A stretch of 64,000 nucleotides of DNA from Klenkia taihuensis (GTDB lineage Bacteria; Actinomycetota; Actinomycetes; Mycobacteriales; Geodermatophilaceae): NCBI RefSeq assembly GCF_900112525.1, contig NZ_FOMD01000004.1, forward strand, positions 310,001 to 374,000, read 5' to 3'. The notes under the pieces are model-generated. The model was not told the DNA's origin, made no database searches, and was given only the letters and a program-made list of their open reading frames with translations. The stretch's first letter is position 1, and every line of letters begins with the position of its first letter. The translations under genes and the position numbers were made by a program. Below, piece by piece: positions 9,708 to 63,928 of the stretch.

Positions 9708-11548
9708 ACCGGCGAGGCTAGCGCCGCCCGCCGGCCCCGACCCCCCGCGCCGCGCACCCGGTCGGGGCGGGCGCGGGTCGGGCCGCCGCCGTCGCGCTCG
9801 CCGAACGGGTCGCGGGCCGAGCGGCCGGCGTCGACCCGTTCCAGGAACCCGCGCAGACCGCCGGTGCCCGGCACCCGGCAGGCCAGCGTGCCGGTGACCT
9901 CGACCAGCCGGGTGCCCGGCTTCTCCATCCAGCGCAGCACCAGCTCGGTCTCCTCGACCGAGGCGGCCAGTTCGCCGGCGGGGGCGGTGACGGTCTCGGC
10001 GGTGGCCTTGAGCAGCTGCAGGTGCGTCCGCACCGGGGTGCCCCGCACCGCCACCCCGGCCGCGACCAGCCGGCCCCGGCGGATGACCGACAGCGCCCAG
10101 CCGCCGGCGCCGTCGGGCCGGGCGAGGGTCAGCTCGGGGACCTCGGCCAGCAGCGCCAGCCGCTGGCGCCGCCGCAGTGCCCGGACCAGGACCGCGACCC
10201 GGTCGCGCAGCACGGCGGCGTCCTCGAACCGGCCCAGGCCGGCCAGCCGGTCGACGCGGGCCAGCAGCGGCGCGCACAGCCGGCCCGGGTCGGCGGACAC
10301 GGCGGTGGCGAAGACCTCGGCGGTGGCGGCGTACTCCTCGCGGCTCTGCGCCCCGGTGCAGGGCGCCCCGCAGCGGCCCATGCCGGCCAGGGCGCACCCC
10401 GGGTGGGTCGGCGAGGGGACGAGCCGGCCGCCGCACTGGCGCAGCGGCACCGCGTCGTGCACGGCCGCCACCGCGGCGTCGGCCGCGCGGCGGTCGGCGA
10501 ACGGGCCGAGGAAGGTGCCGGTGCCGGGCACGACCCGGCGGACGACGGACAGCCGCGGGAACGGCTCGTCGGTCAGCCGCACCCACAGCACGCGCTCGGG
10601 GAAGCGGGACCGGCGGTTGTAGCGGGGCTTGTGCTGGGAGATAAGCCGCAGCTCGCGGACGGCGGCCTCCAGGTCGTGCGCGCAGGGCAGGGACTCGACC
10701 CGCTGGGCCAGGCCGACCATCTCGGTCATCCGGCTGCGCTGCTCACCGGCGGTGAAGTAGCTGCGCACCCGGGAGCGCAGGTCGGTGGAGGTGCCCACGT
10801 AGAGGGGCTCGTCGCCGGGGCCGCGGAAGACGTACACGCCGGGGCCGTGGGGCACGTGCTCGGCGAGGTGCCGCTTGCGCCGCCGCTCCGGGTCGACCTG
10901 GCGGGTCAGGCCGGTCAGCTCCTCCAGCGACGTGACCCCGAGCGGCCCCAGTCGTTCCAGCAGTCCGTGGAGCACGTCGACGGTGGCCCGGGCGTCGTCC
11001 AGCGCGCGGTGGGTGGGCGTGGTGCTGGCGGAGAAGAACGGCGCGAGGGTGCCCAGCTTGCAGTTGGGCACCTCGTCGCGGGTGAGCAGCCGGCGGGCCA
11101 GCACCGCGGTGTCGACGACGGCGGCGGGGGGCCAGCCGGTGCCGGCGGCCGCGCAGGCGGCCTTGAGGAAGCCGACGTCGAAGGGGGCGTTGTGCGCGAC
11201 CAGCACCGCCCCGCGGGCGAACTCCAGGAAGTGCGGCAGCACCGCCTCGATGCGCGGCGCGGTGGCCACCATCGTGCTGGTGATCCCGGTGAGCACGCTG
11301 ATGAACGGCGGGATGGCCCGGCCCGGGTCGACCAGCGTGCCGAACTCCCCGACCACCTCGCCGCCGCGCACCTTGACCGCGCCGATCTCGGTGATCGCGT
11401 CGGTCTGGGCGGAGCCACCGGTGGTCTCCAGGTCGACGACGACGAAGGTGACGCCGGTCAGCGGGGTGCCGAGGTCGTCGATGGTCGCCTGCGCGGAGCC
11501 GGCACCGCGGTGCCGGCGGAGGAGGGGACCGAGGGGGGAACCGATCAC
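9704..11548 (-). CDS. DEDDh exonuclease fused to GIY-YIG (UvrC/Cho-like) nuclease
   Basis: A 614-residue two-nuclease protein. Residues about 30-200 are a DnaQ-like DEDDh 3'-5' exonuclease: VVVDLETTG (first D and E), AHNAPFDVGF and HRALDDARAT. A GIY-YIG domain follows (about 230-310) with GPGVYVF and LYVGTSTDLRSRV, then a UvrC-like middle region with a Cys cluster (CGAPCTG). The UvrC C-terminal endonuclease and HhH domains are absent. It probably acts in DNA repair; the M. tuberculosis Rv2191 protein has the same architecture as I recall. The GTG start follows a TAGCGT box by 7 nt. Longer upstream extensions run antisense to the NlpC/P60 gene and were rejected. Confidence 0.92.
   Translation of the reverse strand: MIGSPLGPLLRRHRGAGSAQATIDDLGTPLTGVTFVVVDLETTGGSAQTDAITEIGAVKVRGGEVVGEFGTLVDPGRAIPPFISVLTGITSTMVATAPRIEAVLPHFLEFARGAVLVAHNAPFDVGFLKAACAAAGTGWPPAAVVDTAVLARRLLTRDEVPNCKLGTLAPFFSASTTPTHRALDDARATVDVLHGLLERLGPLGVTSLEELTGLTRQVDPERRRKRHLAEHVPHGPGVYVFRGPGDEPLYVGTSTDLRSRVRSYFTAGEQRSRMTEMVGLAQRVESLPCAHDLEAAVRELRLISQHKPRYNRRSRFPERVLWVRLTDEPFPRLSVVRRVVPGTGTFLGPFADRRAADAAVAAVHDAVPLRQCGGRLVPSPTHPGCALAGMGRCGAPCTGAQSREEYAATAEVFATAVSADPGRLCAPLLARVDRLAGLGRFEDAAVLRDRVAVLVRALRRRQRLALLAEVPELTLARPDGAGGWALSVIRRGRLVAAGVAVRGTPVRTHLQLLKATAETVTAPAGELAASVEETELVLRWMEKPGTRLVEVTGTLACRVPGTGGLRGFLERVDAGRSARDPFGERDGGGPTRARPDRVRGAGGRGRRAALASPV
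9715..9720 (-). promoter_or_regulatory. Internal -10 box before the Lrp-type gene
   Basis: TAGCCT ends 7 nt before the GTG at 9707, within the last codons of the upstream exonuclease gene. Confidence 0.45.
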
Positions 11549-59597: not shown

Positions 59598-60080
59598 TCA
59601 GCCGGCGTCGACCTCGGCGGCGGTGCCCGCGGTGATGCGCAGCAGCTCGTCGTAGGTGGTGGGGAAGACCGCGTGCGGGTGCCCGGCGGCGGCCCAGACC
59701 TGCGGGAAGCGGGCCAGCGTGATGTCCACCAGGGTGCCGATGAGCTCGGGGTGGCCGACCGGGGCGACCCCGCCGATCGCCTGGCCGGTGTGCTCGCGGA
59801 CGAAGGCGGCGGTGGCCTTGCGCAGCTCGGGGACGCCGAGCAGCCCCGCCACCTTGGCGGTGTCCACCCGGTGCGCGCCGCTGGTCAGCACCAGCACCGG
59901 GTTGCCCTCGACCTCGAAGACCAGGCTGCTGGCGATCGCGCCGACCTCGACGCCGAGCACGGCGGCGGCCTCCTGCGCGGTGCGGGCGCTGTCGGCCAGG
60001 TGCACCACCTCGCCGGTGGCCCCGGCGTCCCGGAGCACCTGCTGCACGTGGGCCACCATCGGGTGCTCGGTCGAGGTCAC
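59598..60080 (-). CDS. YbaK/EbsC-type aminoacyl-tRNA deacylase
   Basis: A 160-residue single-domain protein. The core is AQEAAAVLGVEVGAIASSLVFEVEGNPVLVLTSGAHRVDTAKVA with the conserved Lys in LRKATAAFV and GGVAPVGHPE. Free-standing YbaK-type proteins hydrolyse mischarged aminoacyl-tRNAs such as Cys-tRNA-Pro. The GTG at 60080 has no Shine-Dalgarno; a GACGAT box ends 7 nt upstream. It is divergent from the fic gene, and the repeat array between them may regulate both. Confidence 0.92.
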   Translation of the reverse strand: MTSTEHPMVAHVQQVLRDAGATGEVVHLADSARTAQEAAAVLGVEVGAIASSLVFEVEGNPVLVLTSGAHRVDTAKVAGLLGVPELRKATAAFVREHTGQAIGGVAPVGHPELIGTLVDITLARFPQVWAAAGHPHAVFPTTYDELLRITAGTAAEVDAG

Positions 60081-60087
60081 GCCGCCG

Positions 60088-60093
60088 ATCGTC
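60088..60093 (-). promoter_or_regulatory. Candidate -10 box of the YbaK gene
   Basis: GACGAT on the minus strand ends 7 nt before the GTG at 60080. Confidence 0.35.
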
Positions 60094-60102
60094 GCACCCG
60101 GG

Positions 60103-60169
60103 TGCGAACCCGGCCGGCTGTTGTTCGCACGTACGGCACAAGTGCGAATAAGATCGCCGTGTGTTCGCA
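60103..60169. promoter_or_regulatory. Four alternating TGCGAA/TTCGCA half-sites before fic
   Basis: TGCGAA at 60103-60108 and 60143-60148, TTCGCA at 60124-60129 and 60164-60169: alternating orientation, start spacing 21, 19 and 21 bp. The last site lies within the first codons of fic. The middle two form a GTTCGCAC...GTGCGAAT inverted repeat. Confidence 0.65.
60149..60154 (+). promoter_or_regulatory. -10 box of leaderless fic gene
   Basis: TAAGAT ends 6 nt before the GTG at 60161 and lies between the third and fourth half-sites. Confidence 0.55.
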
Positions 60170-61354
60170 GATGGTGAGGGCTGGCCGGCCATCGGCAGCC
60201 GCGAGCTGCCGTGGCGTCCGGGGCTGCCCGACGACGTCGTACCCCGCGCGGTCCGGCTGCGGCACGCCGGCCCCTACCGGGCCGCGGTCGTGCCGACCAT
60301 CGCCGACCGGGTCCCGGTGGTCGGGGCCGGCGTGCTCCGGGCCGCGGAGGACGCGGCCGCGGAGGTCGCCCGCTTCGACACCCGGATGGGGGCGGAGGTC
60401 GCCCCGTTCGCCGCGGTCCTGCTCCGCACGGAGTCGGCGTCCTCCTCGCGCATCGAGCAGCTGACCTCCGGGGCGCGGGCGATCGCCGTCGCCGAGATCG
60501 GGTCGCCGTCCACGCGCAACGCCGAAGCCGTGGTGGGCAACGTCGCCGCGATGCAGGCGGCCCTCGACCTCTCCGACGAGCCGACGCCCGGCGCGGTGCT
60601 CGCGATGCACCAGGCCCTGCTGGGGGACACCGAGCCGGCCATCGCCGGGCGCTGGCGGGACGAGCAGGTGTGGGTGGGGGGCACGTCCTACGGTCCCCAC
60701 GAGGCCGAGTACGTGGCGCCGGTCGCGGACGACGTGCCGGGGCTGGTGGCCGACCTCGTCCGCTTCGCGGTCCGCACGGACGTGGCGCCCCTGGTGCTGG
60801 CGGCGGTCGCGCACGCGCAGTTCGAGACGATCCACCCCTTCCCGGACGGCAACGGCCGCACCGGCCGGGCCCTGGTGCACTCGCTGCTGCGCCACCACGG
60901 GGTCACCCGGGCGGTCACCGTGCCCGTGTCGGCCGGGCTGCTGGTGGACGTCGAGGGGTACTTCGACGCGCTGACCGCCTACCGCCACGGTGAGCTCGAG
61001 CCCGTCGTCGAGGCGTTCACCGGCGGCACGCTGGCCGCGATCACCAACGCCACGCAGCTGGTGGAGCAGCTCCGGTCGGTGCGGGCCGGGTGGACGGGGA
61101 CCGTCCGCGCCCGGTCCGACGCCGCGGCCTGGCGGCTGGCGGACCTGCTCGTCCGCCAGCCCGTGGTGGACGCCGGCGTCGTCGCCCGCGAGCTGGGCAT
61201 CCCGGCGCAGAACGTGCCCCGAGCCCTGGCGCCGCTGGAGACCGCCGGGGTGGTCACCGAGTTCACCGGCCGGCGTCGCAACCGCATGTGGCAGGCCCGG
61301 GAGGTCCTCGACGCGCTCGACGCCTTCGCCGCCCGGGCGGGCCGACGCCGGTGA
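60161..61354 (+). CDS. Fic-domain AMP-transferase family protein with winged helix
   Basis: A 397-residue protein. The Fic motif HPFPDGNGRTGRALVH is intact (about residues 224-239), with catalytic His. An N-terminal helix SSSRIEQLTSG has the S-x3-E layout of the inhibitory alpha helix of class II Fic proteins, so activity may be self-restrained. The C-terminal 90 residues form a winged helix (LVRQPVVDAGVVARELGIPAQNVPRALAPLETAGVVTE). It could AMPylate a protein target and bind DNA, perhaps its own promoter repeats (inference). No toxin-antitoxin partner is seen. Confidence 0.92.
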   Translation: MFADGEGWPAIGSRELPWRPGLPDDVVPRAVRLRHAGPYRAAVVPTIADRVPVVGAGVLRAAEDAAAEVARFDTRMGAEVAPFAAVLLRTESASSSRIEQLTSGARAIAVAEIGSPSTRNAEAVVGNVAAMQAALDLSDEPTPGAVLAMHQALLGDTEPAIAGRWRDEQVWVGGTSYGPHEAEYVAPVADDVPGLVADLVRFAVRTDVAPLVLAAVAHAQFETIHPFPDGNGRTGRALVHSLLRHHGVTRAVTVPVSAGLLVDVEGYFDALTAYRHGELEPVVEAFTGGTLAAITNATQLVEQLRSVRAGWTGTVRARSDAAAWRLADLLVRQPVVDAGVVARELGIPAQNVPRALAPLETAGVVTEFTGRRRNRMWQAREVLDALDAFAARAGRRR

Positions 61355-61446
61355 CCCCGGTGGACGTGCCGCGCCGCGCCCGGGCAGGGGGCGCCGCGTG
61401 CGGTCGCAGGCCTCCGGCGCGGGGCGCGGCCGCACCTCGAGCCCGA

Positions 61447-61485
61447 CCCCGGCCTGCCCGAGGGCAGCTGGTCCCGGGGCCGGGG
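61447..61485. terminator. Possible hairpin between fic and the POT transporter gene
   Basis: Eight-base arms CCCCGGCC and GGCCGGGG with an inner TGCCC-GA-GGGCA hairpin, in the 130-bp convergent gap. Weaker than the other terminators. Confidence 0.4.
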
Positions 61486-61486
61486 C

Positions 61487-62956
61487 TCAGCGCACCCCGG
61501 ACATGAGCCGCCGGATCGCCGGGGTGGCCAGGGCGAGGACCACCCCGAGGACGACGGCGACGCCGCCGAGGGTGCCGAAGTAGGCGGTCTGCGTGGCCGG
61601 GTCGTACGTCCCCGCGAAGACGCCGGCCAGCGAGGTGCCGATGGCCGTGGAGAGGAACCACAGCGCGACCATCTGGGTGCGGTAGGCCGCCGGCGCCAGC
61701 TTGGTCGACAGGGACAGCCCCACCGGGGACAGCAGCAGCTCGGCCACGGTGAACACCAGCAGGATGCCGACCAGGCCCAGCAGCGGGGCCCCGCCCGGGC
61801 CGTCGCCGGCCATCGGCAGGAACAGCAGGAACGCGACGCCCATGATCGCGGTGCCGGCGGCGAACTTCACCGGCGTCGAGGGCTGGCGGGGGCCCAGCCG
61901 GGTCCAGAGCGCGGCGAACGCACCGGACAGCAGGATGATGAAGACCGGGTTGATCGACTGCACCCACGACGCCGGGACGGTCCAGCCGAACAGGTCGCGG
62001 TCGAGCTGGGAGTCCGCGTACAGCGCCACCACGGTGGACTGCTGCTGGTACAGCGACCAGAACGCCACGCTGGCCACGAACATGGGGATGAAGGCCAGCA
62101 CCCGGCGCCGCTCGGTGCCGTCGACCCGCGCGCTGCGCAGCAGCTGGACGAAGTAGCCGACCGAGACCACCACGCAGACCCACACGACGACGGTGGCCAG
62201 CCGGTCGGCGCGCAGCACCCCGGTCAGCGCCAGCACGACGAGGACCAGCACGCCGACGACGGCGCCGACCGCCCAGCGGGACCGCTGCTCGGGCGGCAGC
62301 GGCGAGGGCACCTCGCGCCCGGTGCCGGCCGGCCCGCGGCGGCCCCAGGCGTACTGGGCCAGGCCCGCGGCCATGCCGACGGCGGCCAGGCCGAAGCCGA
62401 GGTGGAACCCGACCGCCGACTGCGCCAGCCCGGTCAGCAGCGGCCCGACCAGCGCCCCGACGTTGATGCCCAGGTAGAACACGGAGAACCCGGCGTCCCG
62501 GCGCTCGTCGCCGTCGGCGTAGAGCAGGCCCACCAGGGTGGTGGCGGTGGCCTTGACCCCGCCGCTGCCCAGCGCGATGAGGACCAGGCCGACGCCGACG
62601 CCCAGCAGGCCCGGCACCAGCGAGAGCGCCACGTGCCCGGCCATGACGACGACGGCGGACCAGAACAGCACCCGCTCGGGGCCGGCCAGCCGGTCGGAGA
62701 CCCAGCCGCCCACGATCGTGGACAGGTAGACCGTGCCGCCGTAGGCGCCCACGATGCTGGCCGCGGTCGAGGTGCTGATGGCCAGCCCGCCGTCGGCGAC
62801 GGAGTAGGAGAGGTAGTACAGCAGGATCGCCTGCATGCCGTAGAAGCTGAACCGCTCCCACATCTCGACGCCGAACAGGTGCGCCAGGCCGCGCGGTTGA
62901 CCGAGGAAGGTCGTCCCGTCCGCACGGGTGTCGGGGGATGCAGTTGCCACGCCCAA
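61487..62956 (-). CDS. POT/PTR-family proton-dependent oligopeptide transporter
   Basis: A 489-residue transporter of the major facilitator superfamily with about fourteen hydrophobic helices. The N-terminal LFGVEMWERFSFYGMQAILLYYLS is the PTR2 signature with its E-x2-E-R type proton site, and FSVFYLGINVGALVGPLL is the second signature. It imports di- and tripeptides with protons. The start is uncertain: TTG at 62956 has GAGGGG about 9 nt upstream; a GTG two codons later is possible. Confidence 0.92.
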   Translation of the reverse strand: MGVATASPDTRADGTTFLGQPRGLAHLFGVEMWERFSFYGMQAILLYYLSYSVADGGLAISTSTAASIVGAYGGTVYLSTIVGGWVSDRLAGPERVLFWSAVVVMAGHVALSLVPGLLGVGVGLVLIALGSGGVKATATTLVGLLYADGDERRDAGFSVFYLGINVGALVGPLLTGLAQSAVGFHLGFGLAAVGMAAGLAQYAWGRRGPAGTGREVPSPLPPEQRSRWAVGAVVGVLVLVVLALTGVLRADRLATVVVWVCVVVSVGYFVQLLRSARVDGTERRRVLAFIPMFVASVAFWSLYQQQSTVVALYADSQLDRDLFGWTVPASWVQSINPVFIILLSGAFAALWTRLGPRQPSTPVKFAAGTAIMGVAFLLFLPMAGDGPGGAPLLGLVGILLVFTVAELLLSPVGLSLSTKLAPAAYRTQMVALWFLSTAIGTSLAGVFAGTYDPATQTAYFGTLGGVAVVLGVVLALATPAIRRLMSGVR

Positions 62957-63056: not shown

Positions 63057-63072
63057 ACGAACACGTGTTCGA
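63057..63072. promoter_or_regulatory. LexA-type SOS box A (one mismatch)
   Basis: ACGAAC-ACGT-GTTCGA differs at one base from the actinobacterial consensus TCGAAC-N4-GTTCGA. It is centred 61 bp before box B. Confidence 0.7.
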
Positions 63073-63117
63073 CGCCCCGGTTGACGGCCTCGGGCGCGCA
63101 TGGTGTCCTGGTCGTGT

Positions 63118-63133
63118 TCGAACGCACGTTCGA
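63118..63133. promoter_or_regulatory. LexA-type SOS box B (perfect consensus)
   Basis: TCGAAC-GCAC-GTTCGA matches the mycobacterial LexA box exactly, and symmetry extends to GTTCGAAC on both sides (63116-63135). It lies 37 bp before the ATG at 63171. Confidence 0.85.
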
Positions 63134-63170: not shown

Positions 63171-63443
63171 ATGGTCCAGGTGCTGGCGGGTGCGGGGGAG
63201 CGGGTGCAGGTGGAGCGCGGGCCGTCCGGCCCGCTCCGGTTCTGGCGGGGCGAGGGCCTGGGCCGGGGCCGGTACGAGGTCGGGCAGCTCGTCGAGCACC
63301 GGGTGGAGGCGGGCCCGGGGCGGCAGGTCTGGCGGGTGGAGGCGGTGCGCTCGGGCCGGTCGCGCACCAGCTTCGCCGGGGTCTTCGACCTGACCTGGGA
63401 GCCGGCGGCCGACCGCTGGTCGCTCGTGCGGGTGCACGACTGA
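63171..63443 (+). CDS. DUF6504-like small protein
   Basis: A 90-residue protein. RFWRGEGLGRGRYEVGQLVEHRVEAG and the end GVFDLTWEPAADRWSLVRVHD fit DUF6504, a small family found near Y-family polymerase genes in actinobacteria (from memory). The ATG at 63171 has GGAGG 6 nt upstream. A longer reading from 63051 is rejected because it would place SOS box B inside the coding region. Its stop overlaps the next start (TGATG). Function unknown; the SOS boxes imply DNA-damage induction. Confidence 0.8.
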   Translation: MVQVLAGAGERVQVERGPSGPLRFWRGEGLGRGRYEVGQLVEHRVEAGPGRQVWRVEAVRSGRSRTSFAGVFDLTWEPAADRWSLVRVHD

Positions 63444-63928
63444 TGGGCGCGGTCCGGGTGCTGTCACCCGCCCAGCTCGAGCTGACGCCACCGCTGCCGC
63501 CGGCGGCCTCCCAGCTGCTCGGCCAGGCCCACCGCGGCCTGGCCGAGGCGGCGGGGTGCCGTGACGCCGGCTGGCGGTACGCCACCGCGCACCTGGCCGC
63601 CCTGCGGGGGGCGGCGGCGGTGCTGGCCGCCCGCACCCGGCCCGAGTCGGGCCGTCGCCGGCCGCGCAGCGCGTGGGTGCTCATCGGCCAGGTGGCGCCG
63701 GAGCTGGGGGAGTGGGCGGCGTTCTTCGCCGCGGGCGCGGCCAAGCGCGCCGCGGCCGAGGCGGGGCTGAGCTCGGCGGTCACCGAGCGCGAGGCCGACG
63801 ACCTGGTCCGCGACGCCGGCGCGTTCCTCGCCGTCGTGGAGACGACGCTGGGCCGGCCGGTGTCCGCGGCGGCCGCCGAGCCCGCCCCGCCGGGCCGGCC
63901 GGAGGTGCGCCGGCTGCGGCCGGCCTGA
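63443..63928 (+). CDS. SAV_6107-type HEPN-domain protein
   Basis: A 161-residue helical protein. AASQLLGQAHRGLAEAAGCRDAGWRYATAHLAALRGAAAVLAARTRP, APELGEWAAFFAAGAAKRAAAEAGL and EREADDLVRDAGAFLAVVETTLG match the SAV_6107 HEPN family. HEPN proteins are often nucleases or nucleotide-binding partners; the R-x4-6-H ribonuclease motif is not evident here. It is coupled to the DUF6504-like gene and probably precedes imuA'/imuB/dnaE2-like genes beyond the right edge (inference). Confidence 0.85.
   Translation: MGAVRVLSPAQLELTPPLPPAASQLLGQAHRGLAEAAGCRDAGWRYATAHLAALRGAAAVLAARTRPESGRRRPRSAWVLIGQVAPELGEWAAFFAAGAAKRAAAEAGLSSAVTEREADDLVRDAGAFLAVVETTLGRPVSAAAAEPAPPGRPEVRRLRPA

Follow-up and report, generated by a model that had tools for sequence, protein, structure and literature searches.

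The C-terminal domain of ImuB also occurs as a small standalone protein, ImuB-C. Both ImuB-C and DnaE2-[ImuB-C] complexes have been published, with the standalone protein described as a partner of DnaE2 (PMC3765255, PMC6511836, PMC12926913). The polymerase type DnaE2B is reported where ImuA and ImuB are missing, with ImuB-C as the sole linked partner of one group (PMC12926913), and in Deinococcus imuY and dnaE2 are reported as required for UV mutagenesis (PMC8072749). The survey of HEPN domains places their RNase motif, Rx4-6H, at the end of helix 3; it lists the SAV_6107 HEPN family as lacking a conserved Rx4-6H, in an entry that gives no gene neighbourhood (PMC3710099). This survey was the only source on SAV_6107 in the literature searched, where DUF6504 was not found by name. 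The same searches found no HEPN protein together with LexA, the SOS response or DnaE2 and, by title, nothing relevant on HEPN and translesion. HEPN is absent from the main texts of PMC12926913 and PMC3765255, and the main text of the Streptomyces venezuelae LexA study PMC9380542 does not mention it.

Here, we describe a LexA-boxed pair of small genes in Klenkia taihuensis, encoding ImuB-C and a SAV_6107-type HEPN protein. The window, i.e. the whole stretch of 64,000 nucleotides analysed, covers positions 310001-374000 of contig C3 in a 4.3-Mb genome. Judged from its genes and their arrangement in relatives, the locus is probably what remains, as two LexA-repressed genes, of an actinobacterial SOS mutagenesis operon, the full form of which would read box - imuB-C - HEPN - dnaE2B. 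We did not find the link to HEPN, or the exchange of polymerase cassettes behind it, in the main texts of the published work.

The boxed gene pair

A sequence-only reading of the window had placed one perfect and one near-perfect TCGAAC-N4-GTTCGA box directly before two small genes, and all four elements were located. The proximal LexA/SOS box TCGAACGCACGTTCGA (63118..63133, no strand assigned) has 0 mismatches to the consensus, the distal box ACGAACACGTGTTCGA (63057..63072, no strand assigned) has 1, and the genes follow at 63171-63443 and 63443-63928. The window contains five box sites at ≤2 mismatches against 1.26 expected from 100 dinucleotide shuffles, a number equalled in two of these shuffles. 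Genome-wide, 36 places match at ≤1 mismatch, compared with six for a reversed control pattern; among them are boxes adjoining lexA, recA and dinB (assigned by Pfam) and an imuA′-imuB-dnaE2 cluster. The distal box has the same letters as the one adjoining recA. By their sequence, both boxes read as real LexA-type operators.

Between the two boxes lies a candidate –35 element, TTGACG (63081..63086, + strand), which is conserved in 7/7 same-genus genomes aligned, followed after a 17-nt spacer by a weak candidate –10 element, TGTCCT (63104..63109, + strand). Both were read from the sequence as putative promoter parts. In the alignment of the seven same-genus upstream regions, the proximal box lies 31 nt beyond TTGACG, about where transcription would start, and an operator is located in the candidate promoter of the pair, as is typical of the LexA (SOS) regulon.

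To follow the boxes through relatives, we used the 55 of 60 searched genomes, our own included, in which the HEPN gene is present; from the other 54 we picked 40 to cover the spread and took longer stretches, which together with our own gave 41 same-order genomes. A box at ≤1 mismatch precedes the pair or the HEPN gene in 39 of these 41, own genome included, and is perfect in 36; when these loci were cut into 811 tiles of 720 bp, 46 tiles contained such a box, the upstream boxes themselves counted. The two exceptions are L097, where the box has 2 mismatches, and L108, where the sequence ends inside the HEPN gene. Within the genus, the proximal box is perfect in G000 (the window's own genome), G001, G002, G003 and G006. 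The distal box has one mismatch in G000 and G001, is degraded in G002, G003 and G006, and is absent from G004 and G005; it appears to be a local, lineage-specific addition that is not widely conserved. Conservation of the boxes in close relatives, on which the sequence-only reading had staked its proposal, was thus borne out for the proximal box and not for the distal one. Many relatives have a YbaK-like gene close upstream of the box. In the window, what we take to be a Fic-like gene and a gene for a POT-type transporter (59598-62956) lie between the YbaK-like gene and the box.

Gene 1 (63171..63443, + strand) encodes a protein of 90 aa, shorter than its orthologues, which we read as a standalone ImuB-C (DUF6504-like) protein. 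It scores 17.2 bits against Pfam DUF6504 (PF20114), under the cut-off of 24.2. Because all five orthologues scanned at the same place clear this cut-off (L085 32.5, L092 60.8, L122 60.5, L118 49.0 and L093 24.8 bits), we read gene 1 as a short, diverged member, its low score reflecting the limits of detection and not a property of the family. The protein aligns to 20 such ImuB-C proteins at 33-81% identity and is modelled as all-beta, with seven strands and no helix (pLDDT 80). PF20114 also matches aa 426-504 of three alphaproteobacterial ImuB proteins (30.6, 27.9 and 22.8 bits, with 22.8 falling under the cut-off), and an HMM built only from standalone ImuB-C proteins finds alphaproteobacterial ImuB with E-values of 2.3e-6, 2.6e-6 and, for the third, 0.15. 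Against eight actinobacterial ImuB proteins, this HMM gave E-values of 0.03-560 for six and reported no match for two, and hhalign of DUF6504 with five full-length actinobacterial ImuB proteins found no match (probability 0.3). We therefore draw the connection to ImuB from the alphaproteobacterial matches and the published ImuB-C work, and gene 1 reads as the C-terminal domain of ImuB in standalone form, short and diverged. A solved-structure search with the ImuB-C profile returned ten matches at E 0.18-0.49, all to mitochondrial RNA polymerases, which we took as chance, and NCBIfam has no family for the protein of gene 1 or of gene 2. Across the phylum, PF20114 was found in at least 72 of 298, a count that is too low for ImuB-C since the profile misses gene 1 of our own genome.

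The ATG of gene 2 (63443..63928, + strand) overlaps the gene 1 stop by 1 nt. The encoded protein of 161 aa matches HEPN_SAV_6107 (Pfam PF18726) with 127.6 bits (cut-off 27.2) and is modelled by AF2 as a helical bundle with a mean pLDDT of 86. Over 122 HEPN rows, with our own counted twice, R45 is conserved in 99% and H50 in 89%; this R45-x4-H50 is the sole such spacing and lies where helix 2 begins. The end of helix 3 has an invariant R102, after which the window protein contains no H, so that the Rx4-6H of catalytic HEPN RNases is missing from its expected place. Since the family is also listed without the motif, we discarded the reading of gene 2 as an RNase toxin, and the absence of Rx4-6H leads us to favour a role as adaptor or regulator. 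The HEPN protein had no match in a plasmid search, and its profile found 2hsb as best solved structure, at E 0.84. It weakly matches the PADLOC candidate PDC-M05B (E 4.7e-4).

The slot behind the HEPN gene

The pair had been expected to head a mutagenesis operon continuing past the right edge of the window. Two SAM methyltransferase genes follow gene 2 directly; most of the genes beyond them carry names that we assigned by reading their sequence. No C- or Y-family polymerase match occurs between gene 2 and dinB, the longest-frame start of which lies at L005 10397, ~9 kb from gene 2, behind a perfect box of its own. An intact mutasome operon past the edge was rejected, as the sequence up to L005 19901, ~18 kb beyond it, shows none. 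Neither imuA′, imuB nor dnaE2 was found at this locus, and no DnaE2B gene adjoins imuB-C here. Instead, an imuA′-imuB-dnaE2 cluster with a perfect box at its head lies on contig C7, its imuB assigned by an IMS match, its dnaE2 by a polymerase profile and its imuA′ by position, no Pfam match being obtained. Among the polymerase matches of the genome, there is only one in the DnaE1 range and one in the DnaE2A range.

Several other boxed places in this genome deserve mention. The dinB box (L005 10389-10404, contig C3:382888-382903) overlaps the longest-frame start at 10397, and the true dinB start is probably downstream. The region separating lexA from a divergently oriented gene holds three boxes within 95 bases, one perfect and two with a single mismatch (L009 3349-3443). 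A perfect box with the letters of the dinB box (L007 3148-3163, contig C5:544147) is found by a small hypothetical gene; its other neighbour reads like a short-chain dehydrogenase, and we recognised no repair gene nearby. Another perfect box (L006 3186-3201, contig C5:128185) stands at the start of a gene for a 593-aa DUF222 protein, and DUF222 genes may form a further SOS class in this genome. A one-mismatch box (L012 2990-3005, contig C5:641989) lies at the beginning of a gene for a radical SAM protein; this gene resembles the SOS-linked radical SAM gene described for Streptomyces venezuelae (PMC9380542).

The local result, no repair genes nearby, was overturned by the relatives because there a polymerase follows the HEPN gene. 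Seventeen of the 41 same-order genomes show the arrangement box - ImuB-C - HEPN - DnaE2B, and in four others (L090, L093, L095, L100) imuA′-imuB-dnaE2 occupies the slot. In 14, a methyltransferase gene is the next to be recognised, with no polymerase before it, and the remaining six show something else or a contig end, among them L119 with dnaE2 tail to tail with HEPN. Of the proposed operon it is the link to SOS mutagenesis, seen in relatives, that survives, not its presence downstream of this window. The order HEPN - methyltransferase - dinB, with dinB within ~2 kb, occurs in eight of the 41 (L087, L088, L089, L091, L096, L098, L101, L102). ImuB-C precedes HEPN in 27 of 41 according to an HMM whose seed includes most of these rows.

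We then inspected the junctions, taking as start the nearest in-frame start codon before the conserved N-terminal motif. The HEPN and DnaE2B genes share exactly 4 nt in 12 of the 17 same-order loci, and the HEPN stop and the DnaE2B start are no more than 8 nt apart in 15. In a second set, the best 80 of 524 HEPN loci, 9 of 14 resolved HEPN/polymerase junctions show the 4-nt overlap, some genomes being in both sets. Among these best 80 of 524, a DnaE2B-type polymerase follows HEPN in 15, all with ImuB-C, which the HMM finds in 21 loci. By title, most of the remaining loci of the 80 belong to Streptomyces; ImuB-C was not found there, and the box, if present, is degenerate. For the 48 HEPN - methyltransferase loci in this set, we counted a site at ≤2 mismatches in 22, at 3 mismatches in 14 and none in 12, for which our own window, with five sites at ≤2 mismatches in 64 kb, is a rough yardstick. 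A box with 2-3 mismatches is kept in front of many Streptomyces HEPN genes (L159-L233), ~222 bases ahead of the HEPN match, a hint that LexA may weakly control these genes too.

HEPN is not needed for every DnaE2, as three (G042, G043, G058) of the five sampled relatives without a HEPN match still have a polymerase in the DnaE2A range. The arrangement also extends beyond HEPN. Of the 30 best PF20114 loci in the wider phylum, at least 21 contain the exact 14-mer box core and at least 26 a box at ≤1 mismatch, both being lower bounds, where shuffles of two-base blocks gave an expectation of 1.0; 17 have a same-strand DnaE and five a HEPN gene. From these counts, box - ImuB-C - DnaE2B looks older than the entry of HEPN, and ImuB-C without a neighbouring polymerase is common.

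Probable polymerase exchange and rates of change

In a tree of 58 rows, DnaE1 and the ImuA/B-linked DnaE2 (DnaE2A) each form one group (SH-aLRT 100 each), and the polymerases of the HEPN loci group with Streptomyces DnaE2 and most DUF6504-adjoining polymerases of more distant actinobacteria. The tree was built by a quick method and includes nine short rows, one of which (L080) falls elsewhere; row L054, which nests inside the group, was labelled as distant and is a HEPN locus too. Judged by its location and neighbours, the HEPN-locus polymerase corresponds to the DnaE2B described in PMC12926913.

In a comparison of 30 genomes, DnaE2B and ImuB are mutually exclusive, G009 aside. None of the 14 genomes with an ImuB-type IMS match has a polymerase scoring in the DnaE2B range, and an ImuB-type match is missing from 15 of the 16 DnaE2B genomes; the score range alone served to type some rows, and the genomes are related and thus not independent points. 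The sixteenth, G009, has, besides two full IMS matches, unclear partial ones of 96.6 bits (profile 1-96) and 33.2 bits (profile 89-147), which do not look like ImuB. They lie at C40:86952-107514 and may represent fragments or a broken gene. G039 and G054 have three DnaE matches each, two of them in the DnaE1 score range.

Five genomes of the genus (G000, G001, G002, G003, G006) are without DnaE2B and carry DnaE2A. The other two, G004 and G005, carry DnaE2B, and so do 14 of 15 further family members tested; the fifteenth, the draft G031, has neither polymerase and no HEPN match. In the tree, Klenkia DnaE2A is sister to that of G037, which belongs to another family. By parsimony, this suggests that the Klenkia line lost dnaE2B and gained an imu cassette.

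This difference allowed us to compare the evolution of ImuB-C and HEPN with and without DnaE2B. In the five DnaE2B-less genomes (10 non-independent pairs), dN is 0.137 for ImuB-C and 0.025 for the HEPN core, a ratio of 5.43, as opposed to 0.66-1.64 in six sets keeping DnaE2B (1 to 6 pairs per set). These values come from a repeat estimate restricted to the HEPN core and to comparisons within genera, in which set g11 keeps 27.3 HEPN gap codons per pair; a first estimate with full-length HEPN had given 3.35 versus 0.70-0.78. For ImuB-C, dN/dS is 0.31 without DnaE2B versus 0.14-0.30 in the sets keeping it, and for the HEPN core 0.05 versus 0.07-0.35. Since the HEPN value drops, the shift reflects a slow HEPN as much as a fast ImuB-C. 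The plainest change of ImuB-C where DnaE2B is gone is in length, with 16.8 gap codons per pair versus 0-2.0 in the sets keeping DnaE2B. By these rates, ImuB-C has come under weaker constraint or taken on another job, and HEPN has not.

Proposed role and comparison with described systems

We propose that, as long as the DNA is undamaged, LexA bound at the proximal box would occlude the promoter start; once RecA triggers LexA cleavage, both genes would be derepressed along with imuA′-imuB-dnaE2 and dinB, which have boxes of their own. In relatives, the small, putatively beta-barrel ImuB-C may bind DnaE2B at its PHP domain, following the published model for ImuA-ImuB-DnaE2. HEPN, predicted to be a non-catalytic helical bundle and presumably translated in step with the polymerase, could serve as a further adaptor or regulator. 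The Klenkia lineage has no dnaE2B, carries a DnaE2A-type cassette in its stead and encodes an ImuB-C minus a segment. Because HEPN is tightly conserved while ImuB-C changes faster, the Klenkia HEPN protein most likely still serves a SOS polymerase, which may be DnaE2A or DinB.

The pair might head an intact damage-induced mutagenesis operon in this genome, given its two boxes, its short two-gene unit and the mutasome genes that adjoin it in relatives. We consider this extremely improbable, as methyltransferase genes come next, no C- or Y-family polymerase precedes dinB ~9 kb on, and the mutasome and dinB each have their own box. It is also very unlikely that both genes are decaying relics without a present role: the dN/dS of 0.31 and the many length changes of ImuB-C where DnaE2B is gone would fit such decay, but in the same genomes the HEPN core has a dN/dS of 0.05, the proximal box is perfect in G000-G003 and G006, and both frames are intact.

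Two further explanations accept a function for HEPN and assign it differently. HEPN could act with ImuB-C on DinB rather than on any DnaE2, as the HEPN - methyltransferase - dinB order in eight of 41 genomes and the reported frequent adjacency of standalone ImuB-C and DinB (PMC3765255) would suggest. Here, however, dinB is ~9 kb off with its own perfect box, and it is the DnaE2B gene, not dinB, that HEPN overlaps; this reading is on the unlikely side, while deserving some weight. Alternatively, HEPN could be induced by the SOS response to slow growth during repair, as a toxin directed at RNA or as an RNA binder, its adjacency to the polymerase reflecting shared timing only. Most HEPN domains have the RNase motif, many are toxins, and some motif-less ones may bind RNA (PMC3710099); moreover, the HEPN box is kept even where no polymerase follows, and the weak PADLOC match to PDC-M05B points the same way. 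Against this, SAV_6107 HEPN is listed without Rx4-6H in that survey, no H follows R102, and 12 of 17 loci show the 4-nt overlap with the polymerase gene, so that we regard a toxin or RNA binder as improbable.

The remnant of a SOS mutagenesis operon is thus the reading we retain. The sequence-only reading had considered both small proteins as new mutasome parts. For the DUF6504-like protein this does not stand, since it is the already published ImuB-C; HEPN is the only new candidate of the pair, and a good one. Beyond this locus, we tentatively suggest, with confidence slightly short of even, that HEPN_SAV_6107 may have been overlooked as a general accessory factor for SOS polymerases in actinobacteria. 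The slot behind it would exchange C-family cassettes (DnaE2B, ImuA′-ImuB-DnaE2A or none) while HEPN and the LexA box stay, and in Klenkia the re-shaped ImuB-C and HEPN would serve an unlinked, newly gained mutasome. The known accessory set of ImuA, ImuB, ImuB-C and RecA may be incomplete in Actinobacteria, which bears on how DnaE2-type polymerases gain access to DNA and stay in check. A LexA-boxed HEPN gene that overlaps the polymerase gene and is kept through polymerase exchange is a concrete new accessory candidate, and the Klenkia swap offers a natural before/after comparison for ImuB-C without its polymerase.

Among described systems, the putative DnaE2B-[ImuB-C] mutasome of Actinobacteria (PMC12926913) shares with the full form a standalone ImuB-C by DnaE2B without ImuA and ImuB, as in 17 of our 41 same-order genomes; it differs in that the polymerase is missing at the Klenkia locus and that its main text is without HEPN. 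With the ImuA′-ImuB-DnaE2 (DnaE2A) mutasome, which is encoded elsewhere in this genome and lies behind HEPN in four of 41, the locus shares LexA-box control and differs in having no imuA′, imuB or dnaE2. The Deinococcus imuY-imuB-C-dnaE2 cassette (PMC8072749) is likewise a LexA/RecA-controlled mutagenesis cassette with a standalone ImuB-C (80 aa), whereas it includes lexA and a predicted inactive PolY and no HEPN, and the role of ImuB-C itself is described there as not established. Finally, gene 2 shares with the HEPN-M (SAV_6107) family (PF18726; PMC3710099) its membership and the loss of Rx4-6H, to which the present analysis adds the SOS box and the link to a polymerase.
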